Origin: Komagataeibacter melaceti
Lineage (GTDB): Bacteria > Pseudomonadota > Alphaproteobacteria > Acetobacterales > Acetobacteraceae
Direction of reading: 5' to 3'
Length of the DNA: 47,234 nt
Assembly: GCF_003403295.1 (NCBI RefSeq)
Contig: NZ_QUWV01000026.1
Location: 1 to 47,234, forward strand
Of the stretch, positions 1 through 41,329 are shown piece by piece (within the stretch, counting starts at the first letter, position 1; each line of letters opens with the position of its first letter). Below the pieces are notes generated by a model that did no database searches, was not told the origin of the DNA, and worked only from the letters and a program-made list of their open reading frames with translations. Made by a program: the position numbers and the translations under genes.

Positions 1-503
1 ATATTCTCTTGTCAAAGAACCCGCCGGAGCAGCATCGCCGTCCGGTGAAGGGGCTTTTACGGATATTGGGGCACCGTGTCAACGCCACCCCAAAAACACA
101 TGAAATGCACGGAAATCAGCCACTAAACACATAAAACGTTCACTACTCGCACCGAAAAAAATGCACGAATAATGAAAAATATATGAAAAAAGAGGACCGC
201 ATCCTGCCGGACAGGTTCCGACCGGCCGGGTTGGGGTCATAGGACGAAATCTGCCCCCGTTTTGCAATGCAATGCTTCTTATGGCGTTGCCCTGCGAAGG
301 AGGCTGCAATCCCCCTTCCGGTCCCCACCTCAGGATCATCTATTATATATGAAGCGCGCCATTACCCGTTCAGCTATCATCAAACGATAAGCTTCAAGCT
401 GACCAGTCGGCAGCAGAGGCCACCATCAGAAAACCATATTTCCCCGGATCACGTCAGGCCGTCTCGATAATCCGCCTTCAGGCCATGCAGCAGGGTCCAT
501 CCA
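1..503. other. Intergenic region with no supported gene
   Basis: No convincing gene is visible here. The short open frames are overlapping and have no recognisable protein character. Bases about 120-200 are much more AT-rich than the rest of the window, and another AT-rich patch (TATTATATAT) lies near 341-350. A promoter for the downstream lipid locus probably lies here, but no clear -35/-10 pair can be assigned. The first 80 or so bases could be the tail of a gene beginning outside the window; nothing supports a particular frame. Confidence 0.5.
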
Positions 504-1637
504 GTGGCTCATATCTTGTTCCCTTACATTGCCCAGCCACATCAGGAATTCCATTCGCTTCCGATTGCCCTGGAAATGAGCCGCCTTTACCCGGACATTC
601 AGGTTCACATCGCAAGCCTGACCCCGGAGCGTGATGCGCGGATACGCCGGTTATCACAGTGCTATCCGCAATCCCGTGTCAGCTTCGACCTCCTTCGCCA
701 GCCCGCATGGATTCGGCGGCATCTGGAGCGGTATGGTCCGACACCTTTAAGTAAACTGGCGGTTCTTTTTTCAAACAGAAATTATTTCAACAGATTTCAG
801 GCCATTGTCGTACCAGAGCGCACATCGCTTTATTTGCGCAGGATGGGCGTTATCCATCCGCGTCTTATATGGACGCGTCATGGCGCGGGTGACCGGGCCA
901 TCGGCTTTGCCCGGGACGCCCGGCATTTCGACCATATCCTTCTGGCAGGCCCCAAGGTGGAAAGGCGCCTGTTGGAAGCGGGCGCCTTACGTCCGGAACA
1001 TTATACAACCGGCATTTATGCGAAATTCGATATGGTGCGCCGGTTACATACCGGCCACGCGCGGCTGTTTGCCAATGATCGCCCCACCATAATTTACAAC
1101 CCGCATTTCAGCCCCAGGTTTTCGTCATGGCCGCGCTTTGGCAGGAAGGTGCTTGAATATTTCGCATACCAGACAAAGTACAATCTGGTTTTTGCCCCTC
1201 ATTACCGGCTGTTCGACGCGGATCGGCAGGAAACCATGAAAATTCTGGCCCCTTTCATGTCGCTATCCCATATGATCATTGACCCGGGCAGCGACAGGAG
1301 CGTGGATATGACCTATACCCTTGCGGCCGACCTATATATGGGCGACGTCAGCAGCCAGATCGGCGAGTTCCTGATCAGGCCCCGCCCCTGCCTGTTCCTT
1401 GACGCGCATCGGACCAGATGGCGGGAAAACCCCGATTATGAGAGCTGGACGCTGGGGCGGGTCATGAACAATGTGGACGGGCTGGAGACAGGTCTTGACA
1501 CTGCTTTCCGCTCACATGCAAATTTCCTTGATCGGCAAAAAGAGTATATACGCGACACATTCGGGTTTGCGGCGCCAGTTGATACGGCTGCCAAGGGCGC
1601 GAAATCGATTATTGACTTTTTGAGGGTAATTGGTTGA
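504..1637 (+). CDS. CDP-glycerol glycerophosphotransferase-like protein
   Basis: 377 aa with a GTG start, preceded by CAGGG about 8 bases upstream. No signal peptide or membrane segment is seen, so it is probably cytosolic or peripheral. Motifs resemble the glycerophosphotransferase family (TagB/TagF type, PF04464): an RHG motif at residues 125-127 in the place of the family WHG, a PH pair at 232-233 in the place of the KxHP motif, and GDVSS at 280-284 followed by EFL.RPRPCLFLD, matching the family TDYSS...kPiifyd block. Family members transfer glycerophosphate from CDP-glycerol to a lipid or sugar acceptor. Its stop overlaps the TTG start of the acyl-AMP ligase gene (TTGA), so the two are probably translated together. 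I infer a role in adding a head group to the sphingolipid made by the neighbours. A generic GT-B glycosyltransferase is the alternative. Confidence 0.7.
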   Translation: MAHILFPYIAQPHQEFHSLPIALEMSRLYPDIQVHIASLTPERDARIRRLSQCYPQSRVSFDLLRQPAWIRRHLERYGPTPLSKLAVLFSNRNYFNRFQAIVVPERTSLYLRRMGVIHPRLIWTRHGAGDRAIGFARDARHFDHILLAGPKVERRLLEAGALRPEHYTTGIYAKFDMVRRLHTGHARLFANDRPTIIYNPHFSPRFSSWPRFGRKVLEYFAYQTKYNLVFAPHYRLFDADRQETMKILAPFMSLSHMIIDPGSDRSVDMTYTLAADLYMGDVSSQIGEFLIRPRPCLFLDAHRTRWRENPDYESWTLGRVMNNVDGLETGLDTAFRSHANFLDRQKEYIRDTFGFAAPVDTAAKGAKSIIDFLRVIG

Positions 1638-3430
1638 AGACCGCCCATTCGCCGTTTCAAAATACGTCTGTGGAAGTCACATTACCAGAAATGACAAGCC
1701 TCCCGACCCCCTCCGATTCTGGTCTGCCGCGTCGTTACGGCGATTTTCCATCGTTCCCCGCGGCGCTGGATTATGCCGCGCAGGGCAGCAGCGGATTCAA
1801 CATCTACTCCGGCAAGGGTGTCCTGCTCGAAACTCTGCCTTACAGCGCACTGCGTGAGCAGGCGATCGAGACCGGAAAGCGCCTTCTCTCACTCGGGCTG
1901 AAGCCCGGTGACCGGGTGGCCATCGTGGCGGAAAGCGATGGTGACTTTGCGCGTATCTTCTTTGGCTGCCAGTACGCGGGCCTCGTCTCGGCCCCCCTGC
2001 CCCTGCCCGTGGCCTTTGGTGGCCGTGAAGGTTATGTCGGCACCCTGCGTGGCATGATCGAAGGTGCGGCGGCCTCAGCCGTGGTGATCGCCTCGATCAT
2101 CTCCTCATGGACCGATGAGATCACGGCGGGTCTGGACCTGAAATTCGCCGGTACGCCGAGCGAACTGCTCGAAACCCCGATTACGGTTGAGACACTTCCG
2201 GCCATCGGGCCGGATGACCTGTCCTATCTGCAGTTCTCCTCGGGCAGCACCCGTTTCCCGATGGGGATTGCAGTCACCCAGCGTTCGGGCATGGCCAACG
2301 CGCACGCCATTGCGCTCAATGGTCTGAAGGTGCGCGAGACGGGTGATCGCTGCGTATCGTGGCTGCCGCTTTATCATGACATGGGGTTGGTTGGCTTCTT
2401 CCTCACCCCCATGACCTGCCAGCTTAGCGTTGACATGCTGCCGACCCGGGAATTCGCCCGTCGGCCCCATGTCTGGCTTGACCTGATCAGCCGCAACCGG
2501 GGCACGATCTCCTACAGCCCGTCCTTCGGTTACGAACTCTGCGCGCGACGCGCCACCTCGATCGAGCTTGACCTGTCATCATGGCGGATCGCTGGCATCG
2601 GGGGGGATATGATCCGCTATCATATCCTTGAGGACTTCGCCCAGCGCTTCGCCGCTTCCGGCTTTGACAGCCGCGCGTTTACCGCAAGTTACGGCATGGC
2701 CGAGGCCACGCTGGCCATAAGCTTCGCCCCGCTCGGCTCGGGTATCCGCACCGACACGATCGACCTGCGCGCGCTGGAAACACGTGGGGAGGCCATTCCC
2801 TCCAACGATCCGGCACGGGCGCTGCGCACTTTCGTCATCTGTGGCGAAGTGCTGCCAGAGCATGAGCTAGAGGTGCGTGACGCGCAGGGCCGCGTACTGC
2901 AGGACCGTCAGGTCGGCACCATTTTTGTCCGTGGCCCGAGCCTGATGCAGGGCTACTTCCGCAGGCCGCAGGAAACCGCCCGCGCGCTTGATTCCGATGG
3001 ATGGCTGAATACGGGCGATCTGGGTTACATGCTGGACGGGCAGGTTGTCGTGACCGGCCGGGCCAAGGACCTGATCATCATCAACGGCCGCAATATCTGG
3101 CCGCAGGATCTGGAATGGTCGGCCGAGACCGAAATCAGCACGCTGCGCAGCCGCGATGTGGCCGTCTTCTCCGTGGATGAGGACGAAGGGGAAAAGATCG
3201 TGGCACTGGTGCAGTGCCGTGCGTCCTCCCCCGAAGCACGTGAGACGCTGAAGACGGAAACCGCCAGCCTGTTCCGGCGGCAGCATGGGGTGGATGTTTC
3301 CATTATCCTTGTACCGCCCCACACGTTGCCGCAGACATCATCAGGCAAGCTGACACGGGCACGGGCAAAGGCCATGCTGCTTTCCGGCGCGTTCCAGCCG
3401 CTTGAGACAAGTTCCGTCCCGGTTGTCTGA
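1634..3430 (+). CDS. Fatty-acyl-AMP ligase / acyl-ACP synthetase of sphingolipid locus
   Basis: 598 aa, ANL superfamily. The N-terminal adenylation domain has the P-loop SSGSTRFPMG (from residue 202) and YHDMGLVGFF (from 247), both typical of fatty-acyl-AMP ligases. The C-terminal hinge region carries NTGDLGYM and GRAKDLIIINGRN. These enzymes activate a fatty acid with ATP and load it on an acyl carrier protein. An ACP gene and serine palmitoyltransferase follow, so the likely job is to charge the dedicated ACP for sphingolipid synthesis, as the Caulobacter acyl-ACP synthetase does. The start is TTG at 1634: GAGGG lies seven bases upstream and the codon overlaps the previous stop. ATG at 1691 is a possible shorter start with a poorer ribosome site. 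Confidence 0.87.
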   Translation: MKTAHSPFQNTSVEVTLPEMTSLPTPSDSGLPRRYGDFPSFPAALDYAAQGSSGFNIYSGKGVLLETLPYSALREQAIETGKRLLSLGLKPGDRVAIVAESDGDFARIFFGCQYAGLVSAPLPLPVAFGGREGYVGTLRGMIEGAAASAVVIASIISSWTDEITAGLDLKFAGTPSELLETPITVETLPAIGPDDLSYLQFSSGSTRFPMGIAVTQRSGMANAHAIALNGLKVRETGDRCVSWLPLYHDMGLVGFFLTPMTCQLSVDMLPTREFARRPHVWLDLISRNRGTISYSPSFGYELCARRATSIELDLSSWRIAGIGGDMIRYHILEDFAQRFAASGFDSRAFTASYGMAEATLAISFAPLGSGIRTDTIDLRALETRGEAIPSNDPARALRTFVICGEVLPEHELEVRDAQGRVLQDRQVGTIFVRGPSLMQGYFRRPQETARALDSDGWLNTGDLGYMLDGQVVVTGRAKDLIIINGRNIWPQDLEWSAETEISTLRSRDVAVFSVDEDEGEKIVALVQCRASSPEARETLKTETASLFRRQHGVDVSIILVPPHTLPQTSSGKLTRARAKAMLLSGAFQPLETSSVPVV

Positions 3431-3479
3431 CGGGTTGCGGCCAGCCCGTTTTTCCGCACGGGCGGAAGTGTAAAGCGGG

Positions 3480-3501
3480 ACTGGCCAAAAACCAGTTTTT
3501 C
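3480..3501 (+). terminator. Weak terminator-like hairpin between ligase and ACP genes
   Basis: A short stem, ACTGG...CCAGT, with an A-rich loop is followed directly by TTTTT. The stem is only five base pairs, so it may attenuate rather than end transcription. It sits in the 188-base gap between the acyl-AMP ligase and the ACP gene, where expression of the two could be uncoupled. Confidence 0.3.
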
Positions 3502-3618
3502 GATCATAAAACTTCCGGTCAGGGGCCGGATTGCAGCCCCACCCGTGATTCATGAATTGCGGGCTGGCCATTCATGCTGATCCCCTGCCCAGGCAGGACG
3601 TGCCATAAGGATGTAGGA

Positions 3619-3870
3619 ATGACTGAAACGGTAGCGAGCGTCTCCGCGCTGATCGTGAAGACGCTGCTGGCGAACCCCAAGGTTCCCCGTGATATCAATG
3701 GCAGCAGCAAGATCGTTGAGGATCTGGCCTTTGATTCACTGGCCGTCATGAATTTCGTCATGGAAATCGAGGATACCCTCGATGTTTCCGTGCCGCTGGA
3801 CCGGCTGGCCGATATCCGCACGATTGATGATCTGGCTGCGTGTATCGTCTCCCTCAAGCAGGCGTCCTGA
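3619..3870 (+). CDS. Acyl carrier protein dedicated to sphingolipid synthesis
   Basis: 83 aa. The phosphopantetheine attachment motif is DSLAVMNF, within an acidic helix-rich sequence. It is divergent from the housekeeping AcpP encoded at 16732-16971. AAGG lies eight bases before the ATG, which fixes the start over longer in-frame options. Its place between an acyl-ACP synthetase and serine palmitoyltransferase matches the Caulobacter arrangement in which a special ACP supplies the acyl chain for 3-ketosphinganine synthesis. The following gene starts six bases after the stop. Confidence 0.88.
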   Translation: MTETVASVSALIVKTLLANPKVPRDINGSSKIVEDLAFDSLAVMNFVMEIEDTLDVSVPLDRLADIRTIDDLAACIVSLKQAS

Positions 3871-3876
3871 CGCGCC

Positions 3877-5079
3877 ATGTCCATCTTTTCCAAATATGAA
3901 TCGCTGGCATCCTCGCTGAAAGCCGTTACGGCCGGGGGCGGGCGCAACCCCTTCAACGTCGTTATCGAAAAGCCCATTTCCTCCACCGTCGGGCTGATCG
4001 AGGGGCGCGAGACCCTGCTTTTCGGCACCAACAACTACCTTGGCCTGAGCCAGTCTCCCGCCGCGATTGAAGCCGCGGTCGAGGCCGCGCGGGCCTATGG
4101 CGTCGGCACCACCGGGTCACGCATCGCCAATGGCACGCAGGGGCTGCACCGTCAGCTTGAGCAGCGCCTTGCTGCGTTTTTCCGGCGGCGGCACTGCATG
4201 GTGTTTTCCACCGGCTATCAGGCCAATCTGGGCACGATTTCCGCCTTGGCGGGCAAGGATGACTACCTGCTGCTGGATGCGGATAGTCACGCCAGCATTT
4301 ATGACGGCAGCCGCCTGGGTCATGCGCAGGTCATCCGCTTCCGCCATAATGACGCCGATGACCTGCGCAAGCGCCTGCGCCGCCTTGATGGCACGCCGGG
4401 TGCCAAGCTGGTCGTGGTCGAAGGCATCTACTCCATGATGGGTGATGTCGTGCCCATGGCGGAGTTCGCGGCAGTCAAGCGGGAAACGGGTGCGTGGCTG
4501 CTGGCCGATGAAGCCCATTCCGTTGGTGTCATGGGTGAACACGGGCGCGGCGTGGCGGAAGCTGACGGCGTGGAAGACGATGTAGATTTCGTCGTCGGCA
4601 CCTTTTCCAAAAGTCTGGGCACGGTTGGCGGATACTGCGTGTCCAACCATGCCGGGCTGGATCTGATCCGCCTGTGCTCACGCCCATACATGTTCACCGC
4701 ATCGCTGCCGCCTGAAGTCATTGCCGCGACCATGGCCGCGCTGGACGAAATGGAGCGCCATCCCGAACTGCGTGTGCAGTTGATGGACAATGCGCGCAGG
4801 CTGCATGCGGGGCTTCAGGCCGCCGGTCTGCGCACCGGGCCGCAGGCCAGCCCGGTGGTTTCCGTCGTGCTGGATGACATTCCGGTTGCCGTGGCGTTCT
4901 GGAACCGGCTGCTGGATCTGGGGGTTTACGTCAACCTCAGCCTCCCGCCCGCAACACCGGACCAGCATCCGCTGCTGCGCACCTCCGTCATGGCGACGCA
5001 TACACCCGAACAGGTTGACCGCGCTGTTGAGATATTCGCGGTCGTGGCGCGGGAAATGGGTCTTAACCACGCCGCCTGA
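3877..5079 (+). CDS. spt: Serine palmitoyltransferase
   Basis: 400 aa, the usual length for soluble bacterial SPT, with no membrane helix. It belongs to the PLP-dependent alpha-oxoamine synthase family. The PLP lysine lies in GTFSKSLGTVGGY (K245), the ring-stacking histidine is H138 in DADSHAS, and D211 and H214 lie in LADEAHSVG. It condenses L-serine with an acyl thioester to give 3-ketosphinganine, the first committed step of sphingolipid synthesis. AONS (BioF) and KBL are close relatives. The neighbouring acyl-AMP ligase, ACP, lipid kinase and hydroxylase argue for SPT, and the GTFSKS-GTVGG block is SPT-like. Its last 17 bases overlap the end of the convergent cytidylyltransferase-like gene. 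Confidence 0.88.
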   Translation: MSIFSKYESLASSLKAVTAGGGRNPFNVVIEKPISSTVGLIEGRETLLFGTNNYLGLSQSPAAIEAAVEAARAYGVGTTGSRIANGTQGLHRQLEQRLAAFFRRRHCMVFSTGYQANLGTISALAGKDDYLLLDADSHASIYDGSRLGHAQVIRFRHNDADDLRKRLRRLDGTPGAKLVVVEGIYSMMGDVVPMAEFAAVKRETGAWLLADEAHSVGVMGEHGRGVAEADGVEDDVDFVVGTFSKSLGTVGGYCVSNHAGLDLIRLCSRPYMFTASLPPEVIAATMAALDEMERHPELRVQLMDNARRLHAGLQAAGLRTGPQASPVVSVVLDDIPVAVAFWNRLLDLGVYVNLSLPPATPDQHPLLRTSVMATHTPEQVDRAVEIFAVVAREMGLNHAA

Positions 5080-6028
5080 ATAGACCGGCCTGCCTTAACT
5101 TCCATAACAGATAAGGCAGGCAGATCAGGGGGTGCCGTTCGGAAAACGGCCCTAGCGGCAGTTCAATGCCGGAATGACGCCGGATTTTCCAGGCGATGTA
5201 GCGCGCACCGCCTTCAAACGTGAAGGCGGCCTTGAACAGGCGGCTGACATTCAGCACCCGCCCCAGCCGTCCACGCAGCCACCACCCATCCTGCAGGGAG
5301 CGGCGCTGCGTAGGGGCCAGATGAGGCACCAGGGTCGCGCCGTCCTGATCGAAGGCAAGCCCCTCCGCAGTCCATATGTCCGGCAGGAGCGCCCTGTAGC
5401 GGGCTTCCGCCCCATCCAGCAGGGTCCGGGGCCTGCGGCCATTTTCCACCCGCAGTTCCGCCCCATAGGTATGGGCGAACAGGGCCAGCCAGAATTCGTC
5501 CGCCGTTCCCCGCTCCGGACCGAGTGCGGCGGCCCACCGCCCCGCCTGCGCCACCGCGCGGATGATGCACGCAAGAATGGCGTCCGCCGCTTCCGGCCCC
5601 TGCACCCACACCAGCCGCACGGGCTGGCAGAAGCGCGCCCACACGGTGGTATCAAGCGTCGCCTGCCCCGTCATGCGCCGGAACTGGGCAATGGACAGGA
5701 TCGCCACCTTGGCGCGCATGACGCGGCCATCCACCGTAATCTCGTGATATTCCACATTGGGGGGAAGCAGGCGGTTGGCCTCACGCGCCATGTAGCCAGC
5801 GCCCCAGTCCTCCAGCCGCTCGACAATGACATAGAAGTCCAGAATCCCCTCAGGATCGGGTTCACGCAGGACCGAGCCGTAAAAGAGAACCCCCATGGGG
5901 CGCGCCGTGCCGACCATCTGCGTTACAAACTGCGTAACCGAGAGGGCGACCGGCTGCGTCAGGTCATTGGCCAGCAGGTGGGCAATCCGCCCCGCGGCGG
6001 CAAGACGGAGTGGGCTGGCGTGCGGCAT
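5063..6028 (-). CDS. Tam41-like lipid cytidylyltransferase
   Basis: 321 aa. A nucleotidyltransferase core is visible: FYGSVL (residues 49-54) followed by LDFYVIV with D64, the GS...DxxxxV pattern of Tam41, the mitochondrial CDP-diacylglycerol synthase. The middle region (VDGRVMRAKVAILS, then RFCQPVRLV) resembles the Tam41 stretch around its GRLxKPV motif, and the C-terminal AAFTFEGGARYIAWKIRR resembles the conserved Tam41 end. There are no membrane helices, unlike CdsA. Tam41 makes CDP-diacylglycerol from phosphatidate and CTP. Here it sits right after a lipid kinase, so its substrate could be a phosphorylated sphingolipid. The start is ATG 6028, with GAGG ten bases upstream; TTG at 6037 is less likely. 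The kinase stop lies about 12 bases upstream. The 3' end overlaps SPT on the opposite strand. Confidence 0.72.
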   Translation of the reverse strand: MPHASPLRLAAAGRIAHLLANDLTQPVALSVTQFVTQMVGTARPMGVLFYGSVLREPDPEGILDFYVIVERLEDWGAGYMAREANRLLPPNVEYHEITVDGRVMRAKVAILSIAQFRRMTGQATLDTTVWARFCQPVRLVWVQGPEAADAILACIIRAVAQAGRWAAALGPERGTADEFWLALFAHTYGAELRVENGRRPRTLLDGAEARYRALLPDIWTAEGLAFDQDGATLVPHLAPTQRRSLQDGWWLRGRLGRVLNVSRLFKAAFTFEGGARYIAWKIRRHSGIELPLGPFSERHPLICLPYLLWKLRQAGLFRRRG

Positions 6029-6040
6029 GCTGACCAATCC

Positions 6041-7021
6041 TCAGGCCTGAATGAAGTCTATGGGCGCGGTTGATGACAGGGTGATCCGCCCGCTTGCACC
6101 GGGCGAAAGCACCTCACCATCCAGCACGAAATCGGATGTCAGCGTCATTTCGATGCGCGCCTCGCATCCGCTGCAATAATCGGGGTTCCGGCGCAGCCAG
6201 CCCGGGTGCCGCCCCCGCAGCAGCGTCACCGCCGTCCTGAGCAGGCGCGAGGGGGAAGCCGCCACATGCAGGTAATTGATGACATCATCACGCGCGCCAT
6301 GGTCCGTCCAGAACGGCCAGATACCATAAGGCAGGTGCTGCAGCGTGGTGGACAGGAACAGGAAGCAGTTTTCCTGTGGCCGCACCGTTTTGCCCGCCTT
6401 TATGCCGATAGGGTCGCCCTGCATCCATTCCTGCCGCGAGCGCCGCGTAAGCAGTTGCGCGACCGAGGACAGGAACGAAACCACAACAGCCGTCTCATGC
6501 GCGTAGTGATTCAGAATGGCGGGCTGGTGGGCCAGTTCGATCCCGCGCGTAAACGCCGCCGCCCCGTGGAACATGCCCACCACCGGCTCCCGCCCATCGG
6601 CCTCGGGCCATTCGACAACCAGCCCGCTGCGCCTGCGCACGTTACGCCGCAGCGTGTCCGACGCGGCAAGGGTAAGGAGATGTTCGAGCGCCTCGATCCC
6701 GCGCATGCCGAACCCGACATCCCCGGCAATCAGGTTGGTATTGCCCGAAGGCAGGATGGCAAGGGCAGGCAGCCTGTCGGGCGCATAATGGCGATGGACC
6801 GCCGTCATGACATCGCTGACGGTGCCGTCACCCCCGTCAATGGCGATGCAGTCCATCTGGCGCGCGGCCAGGTCCGCTATGTGGTTATCCAGATGGGCGC
6901 GATCTGCGGGATCAATGAAATTCTCCCCCAGATGGCTGCGGGCTGTCCGGGCGTACAGGCTGCCGTCATTCACATTCCGCCGGCTGCGCGGATTATAAAC
7001 AAGCGCAAAACGTCCGGTCAC
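6041..7021 (-). CDS. Diacylglycerol/ceramide kinase-family lipid kinase
   Basis: 326 aa, a typical length for the DAGK catalytic family. The ATP-binding motif GGDGT is at residues 63-67 and PSGNTN at 91-96 (PxGTxN in relatives). A C-terminal LDGE motif completes the family pattern. The start is GTG at 7021; no better ATG lies upstream. Members phosphorylate diacylglycerol, sphingosine or ceramide. In Caulobacter, as I recall, a member of this family (CpgB) is the ceramide kinase for ceramide phosphoglycerate. Here it is cotranscribed with a Tam41-like cytidylyltransferase and divergent from a phosphoesterase-permease operon, all beside SPT. I infer ceramide or long-chain-base kinase activity. 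Diacylglycerol kinase remains possible. Confidence 0.8.
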   Translation of the reverse strand: MTGRFALVYNPRSRRNVNDGSLYARTARSHLGENFIDPADRAHLDNHIADLAARQMDCIAIDGGDGTVSDVMTAVHRHYAPDRLPALAILPSGNTNLIAGDVGFGMRGIEALEHLLTLAASDTLRRNVRRRSGLVVEWPEADGREPVVGMFHGAAAFTRGIELAHQPAILNHYAHETAVVVSFLSSVAQLLTRRSRQEWMQGDPIGIKAGKTVRPQENCFLFLSTTLQHLPYGIWPFWTDHGARDDVINYLHVAASPSRLLRTAVTLLRGRHPGWLRRNPDYCSGCEARIEMTLTSDFVLDGEVLSPGASGRITLSSTAPIDFIQA

Positions 7022-7180
7022 TGATTATCCCATCCCTGTCTGAAATTTGACGTACAGGCCATAAGCAACCATCTGCCTTCTATTGCAAGGCACGAAACGA
7101 TGGTTCCCCCCGACGGACCGGCAGGCATAACATCCGCCCGGACCAGCCGGGGCGGGTTTGAGGCAAGGAAAGACACCAGC

Positions 7181-8095
7181 TTGAGCACTGTCACGATCGC
7201 CCATCTTTCGGACCCTCACCTGCCGACCGAGATGGTCCCGCCCCGCCTGCGGGAGAGACTGAACAAGCGCATGTTCAGCTACCTTTCATGGAAGAGACGC
7301 CGCCGTTTCATACATCGCCCGGAAATCCTGGCCCGTGTAATGGCCGATATCCGCAGCAGTTCCGTCAACATGATCGCGGTGACCGGCGACCTGACCAATA
7401 TGGGCCTGCCGGGTGAATGTCGTCAGGCCATGCGCTGGCTGGAACAGATGCCGGCGCCGTGTACAGTCATACCCGGAAATCATGACACCCTTGTTCAGGA
7501 CAACTGGCACGATACGGTCGGCCTGTGGGCGCCATGGATGGGGCCCCTGCCCTTCCCCTTCGTCCGCCGGATCGGAAATGTGGCGCTGATCGGTGTCAGT
7601 TCATGCGTGCCCGTGCCCTGGCTCCTGGCAACGGGCCGGGTGGGCGCGCACCAGTTGCAGCGCCTGCGCACCGTGCTGCACGAGACGGCACGCCAGGGCC
7701 TGTGCCGCATTGTCATGATCCACCACCCCCCCGTGCCCGGTCTTGCATCCCCGCGCAAAGCGCTGACGGATATGGATGATTTCGCCACCTGCATTGCACA
7801 CGAAGGGGCCGAGATGGTCCTGCACGGACATGTGCATCTTTCCACCCTGTCCTCCCTGCCCGGGCCTGACAGGGCCGTACCAGTGGTCGGGATCGCCTCG
7901 GCTTCAGCACGATCGTGTGATCCCCTGCGCGCAGCGGCCTGGAATCGTATTACCGTGGCCGGAAACGGGGCTGGCTACACACTCGGCGTTACAAGACGTT
8001 TCTTTCCAGCCGAGGGGAAGGACGGCACAACGCAGGAAACTATTTTTGAACAGCCCCCTCCATCCAGCCGTTTTTCGGGTATAAGCACGCCCTGA
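7181..8095 (+). CDS. Calcineurin-like metallophosphoesterase
   Basis: 304 aa. All five metal-binding blocks of the calcineurin-like family are present in order: LSDPHLP, VTGDLTN, PGNHDTL, MIHHPP and HGHVHLS. The fold is shared by CpdA-type cyclic nucleotide phosphodiesterases and LpxH-type lipid phosphoesterases; sequence alone does not choose between them. I take TTG at 7181 as start because AAGGAAAG lies about ten bases upstream and the conserved domain begins right after; an ATG at 7100 has no good ribosome site. It opens a rightward operon divergent from the lipid kinase, and its stop overlaps the LptF-like start (TGATG). I infer a lipid-phosphate or nucleotide-lipid hydrolase in the sphingolipid pathway. 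Confidence 0.82.
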   Translation: MSTVTIAHLSDPHLPTEMVPPRLRERLNKRMFSYLSWKRRRRFIHRPEILARVMADIRSSSVNMIAVTGDLTNMGLPGECRQAMRWLEQMPAPCTVIPGNHDTLVQDNWHDTVGLWAPWMGPLPFPFVRRIGNVALIGVSSCVPVPWLLATGRVGAHQLQRLRTVLHETARQGLCRIVMIHHPPVPGLASPRKALTDMDDFATCIAHEGAEMVLHGHVHLSTLSSLPGPDRAVPVVGIASASARSCDPLRAAAWNRITVAGNGAGYTLGVTRRFFPAEGKDGTTQETIFEQPPPSSRFSGISTP

Positions 8096-9330
8096 TGAGC
8101 CGCATGTCCTTTCAGCACCGGATAATGGGAAAACTGCTGCCCGGCACAATGGATCGCTATCTCCTGCGCCAGGTTGTGCCGCCGTTTTCCATTGCGCTTG
8201 GTGTGGTCATGATCGCACTGCTGCTGGAACGGCTGCTGGTGCTGTTTGACATACTGGCCGCCAATGGCAGTTCGATGAAAACGTTCTTCGGCCTGCTCAG
8301 TGACCTGATCCCGCATTATCTGGGGCTGGCGCTACCCGCGGCCATGTGCGTAAGCGTGTTTTCCGTCATCCGGCGCATGAGCACGAACCACGAGATCGAT
8401 GCGCTGATGGCCAGCGGCGTCTCGATCTTCCGCATCTGCCAGCCTTTCGTGCTGACCGGCGCGGTATTCGGCCTGCTTGCCTTCTCGCTTTACGGGTTCA
8501 TCCAGCCTTACGCGCGCTATGATTACCGGGCGGCCTTCTACTTCGCCAGCCATGCCGGGTGGGCGCCCCATCTGCAGTCCAAGATGTTCGCCGTATCGGA
8601 CAATATCGTGCTCACGGCGGAGACGGTGGACCATGCCGGTTCGCGCATGTGGCATGTCTTCATCCGCGACAACACGGACAAGTCGCATGTCCGCTTCATT
8701 TCCGCGCAGAAGGGCTACCTCTACAACCCCTCCGACGGGTCGAACATACGGCTGGACCTGGTGGACGGCACGATCATAACCGACAGTCTGGACAAGCCGC
8801 CCAGCATCACCGGCTTCAGCCGCACCACCCAGCTGATCTCCCCCAACCACAAGCTGGATGACGAAGCCTACCGCAACCGGGGGGAGACCGAACGCGAACT
8901 GACGGTGCCCGAACTGTATGAGGGCATACGCCACGGCTATAATGGCCTCAGCCATTCCTACATGGTGGCCGAACTGCATTTCCGTCTGGCGCGCACCGTC
9001 GCCATTCCCTTCATTCCCCTTCTGGCCTGCGCACTGGCGGGTGTGCGCAAGCGCCAGCGCGGCAACCCGGGGCTGGCCATCGCCGCCATCACGCTGGTCG
9101 GCTTCGACCATACGCTGCAGATGGGGCTGAGCTTCGTCGCCAACATGCATATGTCGCCGCTGCTGGTCATCTGGCTGCCCACCGCCGGGTTCGCAACCAT
9201 CTGCGTTGGCATGCTGATCCGGCAGGCGGGGGGACTGCGCATGCTGCTGACCCGTGGCCCGGCCCTGCCTGCCCGCCAGCTCTCGGCCGATGGCCTGCCA
9301 CGACGCCACGTTGCGGAAGGCCCGGCATGA
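8095..9330 (+). CDS. LptF-like permease (YjgP/YjgQ family)
   Basis: 411 aa. The family layout is clear: two N-terminal membrane helices after RYLLRQVV, the conserved LP...VI block with IDALMASGVS in the coupling-helix region, a long periplasmic beta-jellyroll domain (roughly residues 140-290), and three C-terminal helices. LptF with LptG and the ATPase LptB extracts lipopolysaccharide from the inner membrane. The usual neighbours (pepA, lptD) are absent and the gene is coupled on both sides to lipid genes (TGATG upstream, ATGA downstream). It could therefore be the cell's housekeeping LptF or a paralog serving the sphingolipid. No ATPase gene is in the operon; it would have to borrow LptB. 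Confidence 0.82.
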   Translation: MSRMSFQHRIMGKLLPGTMDRYLLRQVVPPFSIALGVVMIALLLERLLVLFDILAANGSSMKTFFGLLSDLIPHYLGLALPAAMCVSVFSVIRRMSTNHEIDALMASGVSIFRICQPFVLTGAVFGLLAFSLYGFIQPYARYDYRAAFYFASHAGWAPHLQSKMFAVSDNIVLTAETVDHAGSRMWHVFIRDNTDKSHVRFISAQKGYLYNPSDGSNIRLDLVDGTIITDSLDKPPSITGFSRTTQLISPNHKLDDEAYRNRGETERELTVPELYEGIRHGYNGLSHSYMVAELHFRLARTVAIPFIPLLACALAGVRKRQRGNPGLAIAAITLVGFDHTLQMGLSFVANMHMSPLLVIWLPTAGFATICVGMLIRQAGGLRMLLTRGPALPARQLSADGLPRRHVAEGPA

Positions 9331-10436
9331 AGCACAGGCTGCGCATGGCCTGCGGCACGGTCCTGATCGGGTACCTGTCGCGCGAACTTCTGACCAAGGT
9401 ATTCACCACGACCATCATCGTGGTGGCGCTCATGGAAATCCTGACGCTGCTGGAGCAGGTCACGGAAATCATGCACCGCCATCTGGGGCTGTCGGGCGTG
9501 CTGTATTACGCGGTGCTGCACATGCCGCTGCTGTTTGGCAACGCCATGCCGGTTGCCGTCCTGATCGGCTCGCTGCTGACGCTGCTGCAGCTCACCACAT
9601 CGAACGAGATCTCGATCATGCGGGCGGCCGGCCTGTCCACGCCGGGGCTGATCAAACTGTTCCTGCCCACCATACTCGCGCTGGGCGTGCTGAGCGGAAT
9701 CGTGGATGACCAGATCACCCCGCGCAGTGAACTCGCGCTGGCGCGGTGGTGGAACGCCACATCCCCCAACGCCGCGACCACATGGCGCAATTACTGGATC
9801 CGCTCCCATGACGACCTGATCAACATCAACTATCTCGATGGTGGCGGCACGCACATGAAGAACGTGACCGTCTATCACCGCGACCATCAAGCCCTGCTGC
9901 AGAAGGTCACGACCCTGGCGGATGTGCATTACGTGCACGGGCACTGGTATGGCACGCCGTCACGAATCCTGAGCGTCATCAGCCCGACCCGGGTGGACCT
10001 GCTGGACATACAGGAGGGCCAGGTCGTGCGGCTGGACTGGCCGCCATCGCTTACCCCCAGCTACATCATGCAGCTTACGGTCAGCTTCACCCAGTCCATC
10101 GGCACCATGCTTGATGAACAGCGTGGCGTACTCGCTTCCAGCCAGTCCCCGTCTTTTTTCCTGACGGAAATACTGGGACGCATCATGTTACCCGTGACAT
10201 TTACGGTTATGCTGTTACTGGCGGTGCCGGTGGTCTATATCCCACCGCGTGCCGGTGCGCGTAGCTGGCTTCCGATATGGTGCCTGGGCGCGGGTCTGCT
10301 ATTTGTCGTGTTCCAGGGGCTGCTGCGCGCCCTGGGCAATGCGGGAACCTTGCCTTCACTTATGGCAATATGCGTCGGGATTCTCATTTTCATCCTTGGC
10401 GTCATTACCGTGCTACTGAGGATCGAAGAGCGATGA
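9327..10436 (+). CDS. LptG-like permease (YjgP/YjgQ family)
   Basis: 369 aa. Same family as its upstream partner: N-terminal helices after YLSRELLTKVF, the cytoplasmic coupling region NEISIMRAAGLS, a periplasmic domain around residues 125-270 and three C-terminal helices ending near the stop. It would pair with the preceding LptF-like protein as a heterodimeric extractor. Start and stop both overlap neighbours by four bases (ATGA), so the five genes from 7181 to 11991 are almost certainly one transcript. Housekeeping LPS export and dedicated sphingolipid export are both possible, as for its partner. Confidence 0.82.
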   Translation: MKHRLRMACGTVLIGYLSRELLTKVFTTTIIVVALMEILTLLEQVTEIMHRHLGLSGVLYYAVLHMPLLFGNAMPVAVLIGSLLTLLQLTTSNEISIMRAAGLSTPGLIKLFLPTILALGVLSGIVDDQITPRSELALARWWNATSPNAATTWRNYWIRSHDDLININYLDGGGTHMKNVTVYHRDHQALLQKVTTLADVHYVHGHWYGTPSRILSVISPTRVDLLDIQEGQVVRLDWPPSLTPSYIMQLTVSFTQSIGTMLDEQRGVLASSQSPSFFLTEILGRIMLPVTFTVMLLLAVPVVYIPPRAGARSWLPIWCLGAGLLFVVFQGLLRALGNAGTLPSLMAICVGILIFILGVITVLLRIEER

Positions 10437-11215
10437 TTACGAACACCCTGAAGAACAGTTCCATCCGGACAGGCCGAAGCTTCGACCTGGGCAAGATGAA
10501 CCTTCGTCAGCTCTGGATTGCCTACCTGACCTATCCCACCATCATGCTGTATTTCGCCCTCGCCATCGCCAGTTACGCCGTCATGGTGTACGCGCACACC
10601 TCCCTGCTTCCGATCGCGATCAGCATTGTATCGGTCATGCTCGTCTACCCGCTGGTGTGGTACGGTATCCATCGTTTCATCCTGCACGGGCGGTTCCTCT
10701 ACCGCATGAAATGGAGCGCATCGCTGTGGAAGCGCATCCACTTCGATCACCACCAGGACCCGCACCTGCTTGACGTGCTGTTCGGCTCGCCCCTCAACAC
10801 CATTCCCACCATCGCCATCGTGACCGTGCCCATCGGCTATGCCATCGGCAACATGGCCGGGGCCGCCGCCGCCTTTGGCGCGGGGCTGACCATCACCTGC
10901 ATCTACGAATTCTTCCACTGCATCCAGCACCTGAACTACAAGCCGCGCATGAGCTGGATCCAGCGCATGAAGCAGCGCCACGTCCTGCATCACTTCCATA
11001 ACGAGAACGGCAATTACGGCATCACCAGCTTCGTGGCCGACCGCCTGTTCGGCAGCTATTATGTCGATGCCCGCAGCTTCCCGCGCAGCCCGAGCGTGTT
11101 CAACCTCGGCTACGACGTAAAGGAAGCGCAGCAGTACCCCTGGGTCATGGAAGAAACCGGCGCGCCGCCGCGTGACCGGCCCGATGGGGCGAACATCACC
11201 CGCAACGCGGCGTGA
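10433..11215 (+). CDS. Fatty acid hydroxylase-superfamily protein, likely sphingolipid hydroxylase
   Basis: 260 aa integral membrane protein. The di-iron histidine motifs of the fatty acid hydroxylase/sterol desaturase superfamily are all visible: HRFILH (H80, H85), HFDHH (H103, H106, H107), FFHCIQH (H162, H166) and HVLHHFH (H183, H186, H187). Two pairs of hydrophobic helices lie at about 30-75 and 122-158. Members use O2 to hydroxylate or desaturate lipid chains. Acetic acid bacteria are known to make ceramides with 2-hydroxypalmitate, so a fatty acid 2-hydroxylase (FA2H/Scs7-like) role fits. C4 long-chain-base hydroxylation is the alternative. The start is ATG 10433 overlapping the LptG stop (ATGA), with GAGGATCGAAGAG before it. 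Confidence 0.82.
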   Translation: MITNTLKNSSIRTGRSFDLGKMNLRQLWIAYLTYPTIMLYFALAIASYAVMVYAHTSLLPIAISIVSVMLVYPLVWYGIHRFILHGRFLYRMKWSASLWKRIHFDHHQDPHLLDVLFGSPLNTIPTIAIVTVPIGYAIGNMAGAAAAFGAGLTITCIYEFFHCIQHLNYKPRMSWIQRMKQRHVLHHFHNENGNYGITSFVADRLFGSYYVDARSFPRSPSVFNLGYDVKEAQQYPWVMEETGAPPRDRPDGANITRNAA

Positions 11216-11991
11216 GCGGCACAATGGGGCTGAACGTACTCATACTGGCGGGCAGCCGCCCGGGACGCCCCGACCCGATGGCCCAGGCGGCAGGCATATC
11301 GCACAAGGCCATCCTGCCCGTCTGCGGCGTTCCCATGATCAGCCGGGTCATAAAGGCCCTGCAGGCGGTCGAGACGATTGGCCGCATCGCCATTTGCATA
11401 GAAAAACCCGATGTGCTTGACGGCGTCGTGCCGGAAAGCGTCACCTTTATCCCGCCCGCGGCAGGCCCCAGCGCCAGCGTGCTCAAGGCGCTGGACATGC
11501 TGGGCACGCCCCTGCTGGTCACCACCGCCGACCACGCCCTGCTTGAGCCGGAATGGGTCCGTGCCTTCGTACGGGCCGCGCAGGACAGCGGGTGTGACGT
11601 TGCCGCCGGCATTGCCATGGAACCCCAGATCCTGCGCGATGTGCCGGACACCAAGCGCACCATGATCCGGCTGGCGGATGGCGCCTTTTCAGGCTGCAAC
11701 ATGTTCCTGTTCCGCACGCCCGCCGCCCATGGCGTGATCCGGCTGTGGCAGAAACTGGAAGCCGACCGCAAGAACCCGCTCAAGATGGCCCGCATCCTCG
11801 GCTTTGGCATCCTGCTGCGCTTCGTGCTGCGGCGTCTGACACGTGCCGATGTCTGCCGCCGTATCGGCCGCCTTTCGGGCGCACGGGTCGCGCTGATCCC
11901 ACTGCCCTTCGGCCGGGCCGCCGTGGATGTGGACAAGCCGGCCGACCTTGAACTTGTAACGCGCCTTCTCTCCACCGCACCGGCGGGCTGA
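11212..11991 (+). CDS. MobA-like NTP transferase family protein
   Basis: 259 aa. The N-terminal nucleotide-binding loop reads VLILAGSRPGRPDP, followed by HKAILPVCGVPMISRV, the substitute for the sugar-nucleotidyltransferase K-P-G-PMI signature. A later TTADHALL supplies the acidic metal site. This is the MobA-like NTP transferase family, which makes nucleotide-linked cofactors, sugars or alcohols. It closes the phosphoesterase-permease-hydroxylase operon with a GTGA overlap; ATG at 11224 is an alternative start. I infer that it makes an activated head-group donor for the locus; the substrate cannot be read from sequence. A basic hydrophobic stretch (FGILLRFVLRRLTR) near residue 200 may touch the membrane. 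Confidence 0.72.
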   Translation: MSGTMGLNVLILAGSRPGRPDPMAQAAGISHKAILPVCGVPMISRVIKALQAVETIGRIAICIEKPDVLDGVVPESVTFIPPAAGPSASVLKALDMLGTPLLVTTADHALLEPEWVRAFVRAAQDSGCDVAAGIAMEPQILRDVPDTKRTMIRLADGAFSGCNMFLFRTPAAHGVIRLWQKLEADRKNPLKMARILGFGILLRFVLRRLTRADVCRRIGRLSGARVALIPLPFGRAAVDVDKPADLELVTRLLSTAPAG

Positions 11992-12010: not shown

Positions 12011-12511
12011 ATGTCCCGCCCATCAGCCCCGCAGGTCCAGTCCGCCATCCGTACCGGAGCCAGCCAGATGTGCAGGCTGCATGGATGGGCGGTACTGCAT
12101 GAGTTCACCCTGCCCGACCGCAGGCGGGCCGACATTATGGCCCTGACGGCCGATGGCTCCTTCATCTGTATCGAGATCAAGTCCGGCCTGCCGGATTTCC
12201 GTGCCGACCATAAATGGCAGGATTACCTGCCGTGGTGCGACCAGATGTATTTTGCGGTCAGTCAGGACTTTCCCCCCGATGTGCTGCCCCAGGACACCGG
12301 CCTGATCGTGGCCGCGACGGGCCACGGCGTGGATGGCATGACCACCTGCGTGGACTGTGCCATTATCCGCCACCCGCCGCGCATGCCCCTTGCCCCGGCC
12401 CGCAGGCGGCGGCTGACGCTACAGTTCGCGATCGAGGCCGCCGGGCGTCTGGGCCGCATCGAGATGCCGCAGGTGGAACACGCGGTCAAAACGGCGCTAC
12501 GCGTGGAATAG
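12011..12511 (+). CDS. mmcB: MmcB family DNA repair protein
   Basis: 166 aa. The sequence has the core of a PD-(D/E)xK-like nuclease fold: RRADIMAL with D, then FICIEIKSG with E-x-K, followed by DFRADHKWQDYL and WCDQMYFAVS. This pattern is that of the Caulobacter MmcB family (DUF2161-like), linked to mitomycin C damage repair and SOS control. No SOS box could be assigned in the 19-base gap before it. It is in the same direction as the lipid operon but not overlapping. Confidence 0.8.
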   Translation: MSRPSAPQVQSAIRTGASQMCRLHGWAVLHEFTLPDRRRADIMALTADGSFICIEIKSGLPDFRADHKWQDYLPWCDQMYFAVSQDFPPDVLPQDTGLIVAATGHGVDGMTTCVDCAIIRHPPRMPLAPARRRRLTLQFAIEAAGRLGRIEMPQVEHAVKTALRVE

Positions 12512-12536
12512 AGTTTGAGACAGGAAAGGTTACCCC

Positions 12537-13322
12537 ATGACACAGGCCATTCTGAGCCGTTTTGAAGCCGCACGTTCGGTCGTGCGCGATGCCGCCGCCC
12601 TGGCCATGAAAATGCGCCCCGCCCCCGGCGGCCCCAAGGGCACCCAGAAGAGTGCGCAGGACTGGCTGACGGAAACCGATGGCGCGGTCGAGTCCTTCAT
12701 TTCGGAGCGAATCGGCACCCTGTTCCCCGAAGATGGCTTTCAGGGCGAGGAAGAAGGCCGCACCCGCACCGGCACCCTGCGCTGGGTCGTGGACCCGATC
12801 GACGGCACCTCCAATTACGCGCGCGGCCGCAACCGCTGGTGTATCTCGCTGGGCCTGATGGATGGCGATACACCGGTTGCCGGAATTATCGAGGCCCCTG
12901 CCCTTGGCGAGACCTATACCGCCGTGCGCGGGCACGGGGCGTTCCTCAACGGCCAGCGCATCCATGCCTCCCCGGTGACGGATACCGCTTCCTCCCTGAT
13001 TGAAATGGGGTGGAGCAACCGCGTACCGCCCGGCGTGTTTCAGGAAAAGATCGACGCCATCCTGAATCTGGGCGCCATGCCGCGTTCGGGCGGGTCCGGT
13101 GCCATTGCGCTGGCCGAAGTCGCCTGCGGGCGGCAGGATGGCTACCTGGAAATCCGCATCAACCTGTGGGACGTGGCGGCCGCGCTGGTACTGCTTGAAG
13201 AAGCCGGTGCGCGTGTCTCCCCCTTCCTGCGTGATGGCGGGCTTACGGACGGCATCAGCATCCTCGCGGCGGCTCCCGGCATTGCCGATGCCCTGTCGGA
13301 TGCCGTGGGCGTATCCTTTTGA
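12537..13322 (+). CDS. Inositol monophosphatase-family phosphatase
   Basis: 261 aa. The three metal-binding blocks of the family are visible: GEEEG near residue 63, DPIDGTSNYARG near 90, and WDVAAALVLLEEAGARVS near 210. Members remove phosphate from myo-inositol 1-phosphate, histidinol phosphate or 3'-phosphoadenosine nucleotides. The substrate cannot be fixed here. The ATG has AGGAAAGG about eight bases upstream. It follows mmcB by 25 bases. Confidence 0.85.
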   Translation: MTQAILSRFEAARSVVRDAAALAMKMRPAPGGPKGTQKSAQDWLTETDGAVESFISERIGTLFPEDGFQGEEEGRTRTGTLRWVVDPIDGTSNYARGRNRWCISLGLMDGDTPVAGIIEAPALGETYTAVRGHGAFLNGQRIHASPVTDTASSLIEMGWSNRVPPGVFQEKIDAILNLGAMPRSGGSGAIALAEVACGRQDGYLEIRINLWDVAAALVLLEEAGARVSPFLRDGGLTDGISILAAAPGIADALSDAVGVSF

Positions 13323-13450
13323 CCATACGGGCGGCATGGGTATGAACGGGCTTGCCTAACCGGCCATGATTCAGCCATGAAAACAGGCCACTCCAGCGCA
13401 TGGGCCGTCTGGGTGGATCTGCGGTTACGAATCGGAAAGGGAGGATGGGT

Positions 13451-14272
13451 TTGCACAAGTTTCATCTCATCAGGACATCACTCGCCGCCATGGCCCTGAT
13501 GATGCCGCTGCATGCCGCCCTGGCAGCGAGCATGGAAGAAGAACAGAACCTGGTTGACCGCGCGACCCTGACCGTTCGGGACATGTTCACCTCTGCCACG
13601 GCCGATAGCAGGATCACCCATTACCTTGCGGATTCCCGCGGGGTGATTGTCTGCCCCTCGGTCTTTCGCATGTCGATCGCCTTTGGCGGTGGCGGTGGTG
13701 GCTGCGTCTTCCTGACGCGTGATGCCCATGGCTCATGGTCTGACCCGGCCTTCTACCGCATGAGTTCGGCCAATTTCGGCGTGCAGTTCGGCATGCAGGA
13801 TGTTGAGGTCATGCTGTTCGTCATGACCGATCAGGGCGTGCAGTCGCTGCTGGACAGCCAGTTCAAGCTCAGCGCCGATGTCGGCACGTCCTTCGCCTCC
13901 TCCGGTTCCGGACTGGAGCGGGGCACGGCGGGCGAACATAACACCAGCATCCTCGGGGTGCAGAAGTCCAAGGGGCTGTTTGCCGGGGCGGCCCTTGGCG
14001 GCTCCAAGATGCGAGTGAACAGCGCCGCCAACCGGGCCTATTACAACCAGGTTGTCGGACCGGAGGATATTGTGGTGTCGATGCGGGTCAACAACTCCGG
14101 GGCCGACCCGCTACGCGCCGCCCTGTCGGAAGTGCTGGCCACGGCCCAGAGCCGCCCGGGCAAGAATGGCCAGACAGGAAGTGCCGCCACATCAACCACC
14201 AGCACGTCACCCCAGCCCGTGGCCACGGCCCCCGCTGGCGCGGTTACAAGCCAGAGCCTGCCCCCCCAGTAA
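13451..14272 (+). CDS. Secreted SYLF-domain (Ysc84-like) lipid-binding protein
   Basis: 273 aa. An N-terminal signal peptide (KFHLIRTSLAAMALMM, cleavage likely after ALA) precedes a SYLF/Ysc84 domain: FGGGGGGCVFLTR, YRMSSANFGVQFGMQ, then DVEVMLFVMTDQG, and a C-terminal GVQKSKGLFAGAALGGSKM. The last 45 or so residues are a low-complexity Ser/Thr/Pro/Ala tail. SYLF domains bind phosphoinositides or other lipids; bacterial members are mostly uncharacterised. Start choice is unusual. GGGAGG abuts ATG 13445 with no spacer but lies six bases before TTG 13451, so TTG is the better start. Confidence 0.82.
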   Translation: MHKFHLIRTSLAAMALMMPLHAALAASMEEEQNLVDRATLTVRDMFTSATADSRITHYLADSRGVIVCPSVFRMSIAFGGGGGGCVFLTRDAHGSWSDPAFYRMSSANFGVQFGMQDVEVMLFVMTDQGVQSLLDSQFKLSADVGTSFASSGSGLERGTAGEHNTSILGVQKSKGLFAGAALGGSKMRVNSAANRAYYNQVVGPEDIVVSMRVNNSGADPLRAALSEVLATAQSRPGKNGQTGSAATSTTSTSPQPVATAPAGAVTSQSLPPQ

Positions 14273-40863: not shown

Positions 40864-41262
40864 TCAGGACAGGTTGCCCGGCCCGAAACTGTCGGGCAGC
40901 AGGTCCGCCAGCGTCCGTTCAACCATGGTCTCTCCCTGTGGCGAGACCATGGTGACCCGCGTGTCGGCCACCCCGAATTCCCTTATTTTCTGCCTGCATC
41001 CGCCACATGGGGTGCACGGCGCATCGCCCCCGCCGCACACGACCACACGGCGGATACGCCGCCCGCCCGCCAGCGCCATGGCCGCGATGGCCCCGGCCTC
41101 GGCACAGGTTCCCTCCGGATAGGCGGCGTTTTCAACATTGCATCCGGCAAAAATCAGCCCATCTACGGTTTCGACAGCGGCGCCGACCTGAAAACGCGAA
41201 TACGGGGCATAGGCCCGCAGCCGTGCATCAACCGCCGCGCGCACCAGAGGGTCATTTTTCAT
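40864..41262 (-). CDS. cdd: Cytidine deaminase
   Basis: 132 aa. The zinc and catalytic motifs are GCNVENAAYPEGTCAEAGAI (C-A-E) and PCTPCGGCRQ. It deaminates cytidine or deoxycytidine in pyrimidine salvage. The ATG at 41262 begins MKNDPLVRAAV; longer frames are antisense to lysA. It is convergent with the small lipoprotein gene and divergent from lysA. Confidence 0.93.
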   Translation of the reverse strand: MKNDPLVRAAVDARLRAYAPYSRFQVGAAVETVDGLIFAGCNVENAAYPEGTCAEAGAIAAMALAGGRRIRRVVVCGGGDAPCTPCGGCRQKIREFGVADTRVTMVSPQGETMVERTLADLLPDSFGPGNLS

Positions 41263-41329
41263 GACTGATGTTTGCTTCCCCGCCTTTCGTGCGTCAAGCA
41301 CCTTGGAAGGGACGGTGCAAGGCGGTATC

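Follow-up and report, generated by a model that had tools for sequence, protein, structure and literature searches.

Which lipid does a cluster of sphingolipid genes at the start of a contig from Komagataeibacter melaceti produce, and how far does it follow the route described for Caulobacter? The window analysed here is the whole of contig NZ_QUWV01000026.1 (assembly GCF_003403295.1), 47,234 nucleotides long; the source genome (G000) comprises 3.49 Mb in 248 contigs. The 11 genes within 504–11991 (Table 1) probably represent the form that the proteobacterial phosphosphingolipid locus takes in this lineage; the reactions, the order of steps, the substrates and export are inferred from gene content. 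The kind of locus is already known; the variant in Komagataeibacter-type genomes is what is new. The direct observations are the identities of the genes, their conserved linkage, the Tam41 fold of a structure model, the pairing of a ceramide synthase (CerS) with a short-chain dehydrogenase/reductase (SDR) elsewhere in the genome, and searches that found no ortholog of CpgA, CpgD or CerR.

The locus is arranged as three transcription units: a plus-strand unit (504–5079) with the TagF-like, acyl-AMP ligase, acyl carrier protein (ACP) and serine palmitoyltransferase (SPT) genes, a minus-strand unit (7021–5063) with the lipid kinase followed by the Tam41-like gene, and a second plus-strand unit (7100–11991) with the phosphoesterase, LptF-type, LptG-type, di-iron hydroxylase and MobA/CofC-like genes. 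The original prediction, made from the sequence, had described one compact locus in which most adjacent genes overlap by 1–4 bases. The genes it named are present, by domain and family profile matches and, for the Tam41-like protein, by profile and fold, but with kinase and Tam41-like gene on the minus strand they do not form a single unit. Overlaps of 1–4 bases occur in five of the ten adjacent pairs (504/1634, 7100/8095, 8095/9327, 9327/hydroxylase and hydroxylase/11212), a count that assumes the likelier hydroxylase start, the ATG at 10433; its longest open reading frame (ORF) opens at 10277. As to the other five, the 3′ ends of the SPT and Tam41-like genes converge with a 17-base overlap, and four pairs are separated by gaps of 3–143 bases. 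Two plus-strand ORFs (5174–6073 and 6206–7024) were rejected: they lie over the Tam41-like and kinase genes of the opposite strand and match no Pfam family.

Table 1. Genes of the K. melaceti locus and the ceramide synthase region outside it.
Feature	Coordinates	Strand	Evidence
TagF-like GT-B protein, 377 aa, GTG start	504..1637	+	weak Glyphos_transf match and fold match
Fatty acyl-AMP ligase (AasR-like)	1634..3430	+	NF006624 E = 4.3e-269, 893.7 bits (cut-off 600); AMP-binding E = 1.4e-44
Dedicated acyl carrier protein (AcpR-like)	3574..3870	+	PP-binding E = 3.4e-10
Serine palmitoyltransferase (Spt)	3877..5079	+	NF047599 643.5 bits (cut-off 500)
Tam41-fold protein (CpgC/CC_1161 position), predicted CTP:ceramide-1-phosphate cytidylyltransferase	5063..6037	-	structure model and Foldseek
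Lipid kinase (CpgB/CC_1160 position), predicted ceramide kinase	6041..7021	-	DAGK_cat E = 4.7e-12; GGDGT motif
Calcineurin-like phosphoesterase (CC_1158-like)	7100..8095	+	Metallophos E = 1.3e-11; motifs DPH, GDL, GNHD, GHVH
Second LptF-type permease	8095..9330	+	LptF_LptG (PF03739) E = 1e-54
Second LptG-type permease	9327..10436	+	LptF_LptG (PF03739) E = 1.2e-54
Di-iron fatty acid/sphingolipid hydroxylase	10433..11215	+	FA_hydroxylase E = 2.4e-20; HRFILH, HFDHH, HCIQH, HVLHH
MobA/CofC-like nucleotidyltransferase (CC_1153-like)	11212..11991	+	NTP_transf_3 E = 3.2e-16
CerS homolog	G000:C10:7793-8923, outside locus		E = 2.4e-92
Classical SDR, 265 aa, divergent to cerS	G000 contig C10		adh_short E = 1.4e-30

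The combination of genes around spt, held in the original prediction to be undescribed, has a published counterpart in Caulobacter CC_1168–CC_1152, a phosphosphingolipid cluster of 17 genes for which mutants were made and their lipids profiled (Olea-Ozuna et al., 2024; PMC11324152). As described in that account, five genes serve to make ceramide and six to turn it into ceramide phosphoglycerate (CPG) and ceramide diphosphoglycerate (CPG2); the cluster contains a ceramide kinase, a protein resembling cytidine diphosphate (CDP)-diacylglycerol (DAG) synthase, a phosphoesterase and a CofC-like protein, together with a possible flippase and a second set of LptC, LptF and LptG, and orthologs are reported in six further species (PMC11324152). 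Judged by sequence, the window shares with this system (PMC11324152, PMC12275187) the aasR–acpR–spt trio for ligase, ACP and SPT, the kinase beside a CC_1161-like (CDP-DAG-synthase-like or Tam41-like) gene, the phosphoesterase and CofC-like genes and an extra LptF/LptG pair, to which the genome adds a CerS. The window's locus lacks CerR, CerS, CpgA and CpgD, and no ortholog of the reductase CerR, the CDP-alcohol transferase CpgA or the CDP-glycerate synthase CpgD was found genome-wide. The K. melaceti genome has instead an SDR beside CerS elsewhere, a hydroxylase inside the locus, whereas the Caulobacter hydroxylase CC_0202 is described as DesA-type and lies outside the cluster, and an added TagF-like gene. 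The earlier claim of a full set of genes is wrong: ceramide synthase and CerR reductase were sought and neither is in the window. Also close in content are loci of Dongia, Azospirillum and relatives (L083–L088, L094 and L115), which have the same genes around the Tam41-like gene, including hydroxylase, MobA-like, phosphoesterase and LptF/LptG genes and, where long enough to show it, SPT, ACP and ligase; these loci hold CpgA, plus CerR and CerS where long enough, and the window's locus does not. Among the best matches of the open-licence literature there is no report of CerR replacement or of a phosphosphingolipid head group in this family, which is weak evidence of absence; on sphingolipid head groups of acetic acid bacteria, the search turned up nothing beyond a review table that lists ceramide for Acetobacter malorum.

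Conservation was followed in 147 related genomes, 19 of them from the same genus, with the Tam41-like gene (tam41L) as marker; in profile searches with numerous first-look candidates, part of them was scored per genome (15 for CerR). The Tam41-like protein is matched in 44 of the 147, including 19/19 of the genus. Both spt (above the family cut-off) and tam41L are found in 43/147 genomes, spt alone in four and tam41L alone in one, so that the lack of co-occurrence with spt named beforehand as evidence against the original prediction did not occur. The 25 tam41L loci outside the genus (3–20 kb each, 22 of them at least 16 kb) contain the kinase in 25, the hydroxylase in 23, SPT, LptF-type, LptG-type and phosphoesterase genes in 22 each, ACP and MobA-like genes in 21 each, the ligase in 19, a glycosyltransferase (GT4) in 12 and the TagF-like gene in 11; rarer are flippase-like genes (8), CerS (6), CerR (3) and CpgA (3). 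A scan of named genomes, centred on the relative L059 and for that reason showing no close kin of the window, found at least 585 relatives among 593 candidate stretches, of which 80 loci were kept, among them Dongia, Kordiimonas, Sphingosinicella, Azospirillum, Burkholderiales and Nitrospirales. The 45 long loci, those exceeding 19 kb, hold CerS (44), LptF-type (41), kinase (40), LptG-type (39), CerR (38), SPT (36), ACP (35), ligase (34), CpgA (21), phosphoesterase (20), CpgD (12) and TagF-like (8) genes. Even the layout recurs: kinase and tam41L are neighbours on the same strand in 70 of the 71 named loci holding both, and SPT is opposite in strand to tam41L in 49/50. This linkage and phyletic profile agree with the proposed synthesis, hydroxylation, decoration and transport of a single lipid by the locus. 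Chance clustering is rejected, since the gene set recurs in the 25 loci outside the genus and in the named loci.

Several observations weigh against reading the genes as a phosphosphingolipid locus of this kind. Orthology to the CC_ genes is presumed from domains, gene order and published description. One 20 kb locus (G047, L055) has neither phosphoesterase nor LptF/LptG homolog, that of G146 (L063) has no LptF/LptG homolog, and those of G072 and G083 (L049 and L057) contain no spt. Hydroxylase and MobA-like genes are each found in only 21 of the 45 long named loci. Of the 25 loci outside the genus, 14 have no TagF-like gene, so the family's head group cannot depend on it. No dedicated LptC2 was found, a single LptC above cut-off, on another contig, being the only one genome-wide, and the window's Tam41-like protein matches zero Pfam families at E ≤ 10.

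The structure model of the Tam41-like protein (predicted local distance difference test score, pLDDT, 92.0; predicted template modelling score, pTM, 0.90) has as best Foldseek matches Tam41 bound to cytidine triphosphate (CTP) and Mg (PDB-id: 7ecd, E = 1.1e-9) and mitochondrial Tam41 (6ig4, 2.2e-9). Tam41 structures take the first five places among the PDB matches, and aminoglycoside nucleotidyltransferases come next at about 2e-4. The family Tam41_Mmp37 (PF09139) is matched by 11 of 35 aligned Tam41-like sequences (best 2.9e-8), and the profile built from all 35 detects Tam41 of known structure at E = 0.0023. The fold is thus shared with the CDP-DAG synthase Tam41 (Foldseek E about 1e-9) at an identity of 12–14%, and the neighbouring genes suggest that the substrate is ceramide-1-phosphate rather than phosphatidic acid. 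Because the Tam41 fold is coupled with a kinase next door, the model suggests a CDP-ceramide intermediate, formed from ceramide-1-phosphate and CTP. The idea of an activated ceramide is not new. A nucleoside diphosphate (NDP)-activated ceramide was suggested earlier for CC_1161 from an InterPro domain (PMC11324152), and the modelled fold supports it; in a later report CpgB is cited as ceramide kinase and the mechanism of CpgC is called unidentified (PMC12275187).

As to the head group, CpgA and CpgD are reported as required for CPG2 in Caulobacter; CpgD is a nucleotidyltransferase making CDP-glycerate (Dhakephalkar et al., 2025; PMC12275187). Full-length CpgA orthologs (at least 450 bits) are found in only four of the 147 genomes (G080, G115, G125 and G146), and CpgD orthologs (at least 312 bits) in the same four. 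Most of the remaining relatives show weaker hits to the CDP-alcohol transferase domain (89/147 genomes have some match at E ≤ 1e-3), and seven more genomes, none of them of the genus, have CpgD matches of 91–117 bits (E ≤ 1e-25); in 19/19 genus genomes there is no match to CpgA at E ≤ 1e-3 and none to CpgD at E ≤ 1e-25. MobA-like homologs (E ≤ 1e-20) are present in 43/147 relatives, all 43 bearing tam41L. In the long named loci the MobA-like gene is accompanied by the phosphoesterase in 20 of 21 cases and by CpgA in 20 of 21, a single locus (L152) having the pair of MobA-like and phosphoesterase genes without CpgA. The genus departs from this rule, keeping both CofC-like protein and phosphoesterase without CpgA and CpgD, and for this reason CPG2 by the known route is unlikely; CPG or another head group is expected. 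Genes alone cannot identify it, and the end product probably differs from the known lipid.

Plain CPG, with one phosphoglycerate and with CpgA and CpgD simply lost, is possible but on balance doubtful. Among the Caulobacter genes tested, CC_1160 and CC_1161 suffice for CPG, and Zymomonas is predicted to have this lipid (PMC11324152); both kinds of gene are present here, and the searches in the genus yielded no ortholog of CpgA or CpgD. Such a loss sits poorly with the added TagF-like gene and with the retained CofC-like protein and phosphoesterase, given the company that MobA-like genes keep in the named loci. Domain scans of the window proteins found no dedicated CDP-alcohol transferase in the locus, and the Tam41 fold implies a CDP-lipid, so that housekeeping CDP-alcohol transferases might use CDP-ceramide (e.g. 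phosphatidylserine synthase followed by a decarboxylase) to give ceramide phosphoethanolamine or similar; we consider this improbable, as it leaves the CofC-like, phosphoesterase and TagF-like proteins without a role.

Slightly less probable still is that the TagF-like protein builds a teichoic-acid-like glycerophosphate head group on ceramide from CDP-glycerol. Its gene overlaps the ligase gene by four bases and is found near the locus in eight of the 45 long named loci too, and the top fold match of its model (built from nine sequences; pLDDT 85.8) is the wall teichoic acid polymerase TagF (H444N, with CDP-glycerol; PDB-id: 3l7k, E = 1.7e-11). The match, at 13% identity, marks the product as a GT-B protein; other GT-B families fit the model almost as well, UDP-N-acetylglucosamine (UDP-GlcNAc) 2-epimerases at 4.5e-11. 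The earlier label of glycerophosphotransferase-like is weak, with a Glyphos_transf (PF04464) score of 11.9 bits (E = 0.11) that does not reach the cut-off of 22.1, and the absence of the gene from 14 of the 25 loci outside the genus tells against a head group built in this manner. In the genus it stands beside the locus at full length in 14/19 genomes, is partly readable in 4/19 and was not found there in 1/19; outside, one further genome (G072) has it beside spt, and in K. melaceti contigs C90 and C93 account for two more TagF-like matches. Orthology of the 504–1637 product to CC_1152/CpgD was rejected: CpgD is a nucleotidyltransferase, and the CpgD-like genes found (L063:13449-14219) belong to a different family. 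The first 2 kb of the window (1–2000), which hold the TagF-like gene, have a G+C content of 0.550 against 0.61–0.69 elsewhere in the window; a later arrival of the gene is possible. Finally, CPG2 made as in Caulobacter with unrelated enzymes replacing CpgA and CpgD would explain why all other kinds of CPG2 gene are kept (kinase, Tam41-like, CofC-like and phosphoesterase), but is very improbable in a genus whose 19 genomes have neither a full-length CpgA ortholog nor a CpgD match at the threshold used.

Other loci differ in gene content. A second CpgA-like CDP-alcohol transferase (L059:16127-17338) lies between LptG and hydroxylase in a metagenome-assembled genome related to Dongia and is seen in 8/45 long named loci too. 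In Kordiimonas/sphingomonad-type loci (among the named loci L083–L162) a flippase and a DUF2141 protein occur together in 24 of 25 flippase loci, mostly without the MobA-like gene, which suggests a second head-group type. A group-1 glycosyltransferase (L040:2107-3192 and similar ORFs) near the MobA-like gene or LptG in 12 of the 25 loci outside the genus, not present in the window's locus, may glycosylate the lipid.

Ceramide formation itself appears to be altered in this lineage. The CerS homolog on contig C10 has counterparts in 19/19 genus genomes and is flanked by a divergent classical SDR with the cofactor motif TGASSGIG and the YxxxK motif YSGSK. Such an SDR adjoins cerS in 20/20 genomes whose cerS region was inspected, three of them from the genus. 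A profile of ten cerS-side SDRs gives at least 308 bits in 39/147 genomes (next match 211), and in 39/39 the match lies 75–342 bases from the CerS match. CerR orthologs (at least 229 bits; next 127) are found in ten of the 147 genomes; the best match in K. melaceti is 98 bits. These bit-score cuts (CerS 259, SDR 308, CerR 229) were chosen after viewing the score lists, the next lower scores being 238, 211 and 127; they exclude CerS matches in G023, G029, G033, G034, G046 and G068, SDR matches from 211 bits down and CerR-profile matches from 127 down. The 47 genomes with spt divide into 37 with the SDR, nine with CerR, none with both and one (G039) with neither, the last having a 183-bit SDR within 5 kb of cerS. 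Exceptions are G028 and G074, with SDR and no spt above cut-off, and G077, with CerR and no spt above cut-off. The exclusion has a Fisher p of 1e-6 with the genus counted once; kinship within the family is otherwise uncorrected, so that the replacement may be one event. As SDR and CerR are never found together in the 47 spt genomes, the SDR beside cerS probably replaces the reductase CerR.

It is quite improbable that a CerR-like epimerase still carries out the reduction in the genus, with the SDR doing something else: the 98-bit match to the CerR profile is what might represent such an enzyme, but matches of this size occur in most relatives, including ones without spt, eight spt-bearing genomes of the family have no match at E ≤ 1e-20 among the candidates scored (in most of the eight, the best 10–15 per genome) and do have the SDR, and the mutual exclusion of SDR and CerR ortholog speaks for replacement. 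That the SDR acts as reductase has a precedent in Bacteroides BT_0972, a classical SDR reported as 3-ketosphinganine reductase (PMC9278070). The two are likened by description (both classical SDRs with cofactor motif and YxxxK) and not by alignment; the C10 SDR differs in being paired with a Caulobacter-type CerS, and its reductase role is predicted. The Caulobacter CerR is described as periplasmic, with the source of its electrons an open problem, and whether acylation precedes or follows reduction in bacterial sphingolipid synthesis is debated (PMC11087976). A classical SDR without a CerR-like export route would be expected to act in the cytosol. As for descent, gain of the locus from Betaproteobacteria is possible: the window SPT passes the betaproteobacterial model and fails the alphaproteobacterial one (NF047603; 477.7 bits, cut-off 670). 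The SPT of G125 and G127, from other families of the same class, passes the betaproteobacterial model too.

For export, the permease pair scores 186.4 and 186.1 bits on PF03739 (cut-off 27.9); the 8095..9330 product scores higher on the LptF than on the LptG model and the 9327..10436 product higher on LptG, with scores below the NCBIfam cut-offs. The genome has four LptF/LptG matches, two in the window and a pair on contig C208. The C208 pair has the higher family scores, and the window's pair is therefore taken as additional, as in Caulobacter. No flippase is seen in the window's locus, a search confined to that locus; polysaccharide-flippase-like ORFs (L040:14727-16133, L056:3399-4970) occur in 8/25 loci outside the genus, beside the TagF-like gene or between LptG and hydroxylase.

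Elsewhere in the window, the locus is followed by MmcB-like, inositol-monophosphatase-family and Ysc84-like genes (12011–14272), which recur beside it in several genomes of the family. A 926-aa DUF4175 protein (42670–45450; E = 5.6e-162) overlaps the end of a diaminopimelate-decarboxylase-like gene (41261–42712), and a Cache-domain adenylate/guanylate cyclase is encoded at 33571–35913 on the minus strand.

Taken as a lineage-specific phosphosphingolipid locus, the genes predict the following pathway. The dedicated ACP would receive a fatty acid from the ligase, and SPT would condense the acyl group with serine. The CerS-type acyltransferase and the divergent SDR, the latter in CerR's place, would complete ceramide from outside the window, and the hydroxylase would add a hydroxyl group. 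The kinase would give ceramide-1-phosphate, which the Tam41-fold enzyme would convert with CTP into CDP-ceramide, before a further transferase adds an alcohol. Later changes to the head group may be the work of the CofC-like enzyme and the phosphoesterase, joined in some members of the family by the TagF-like protein. Transport in the direction of the outer membrane would fall to the additional LptF/LptG pair; the other Lpt parts may be shared with lipopolysaccharide. In its boldest form, which we advance tentatively and think somewhat more apt to fail than to hold in full, the proposal is that the family runs a rewired pathway, with a cytosolic NAD(P)H-dependent SDR and CerS rather than periplasmic CerR, CDP-ceramide as the product of a Tam41-fold enzyme, a new head group whose synthesis involves neither CpgA nor CpgD and which the TagF-like protein extends in some genera, and a second LptF/LptG pair dedicated to export.

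The route by which CpgC leads from ceramide-1-phosphate to CPG (PMC12275187) becomes testable, as CDP-ceramide is the product to be expected of a Tam41 fold in that position. A lineage that has seemingly swapped CerR for a cytosolic-type SDR next to its ceramide synthase is a natural test of the order of acylation and reduction and of the source of CerR's reducing power (PMC11087976). The CofC-like/phosphoesterase pair, kept in the absence of CpgA and CpgD, points to a head group that is perhaps not yet described.

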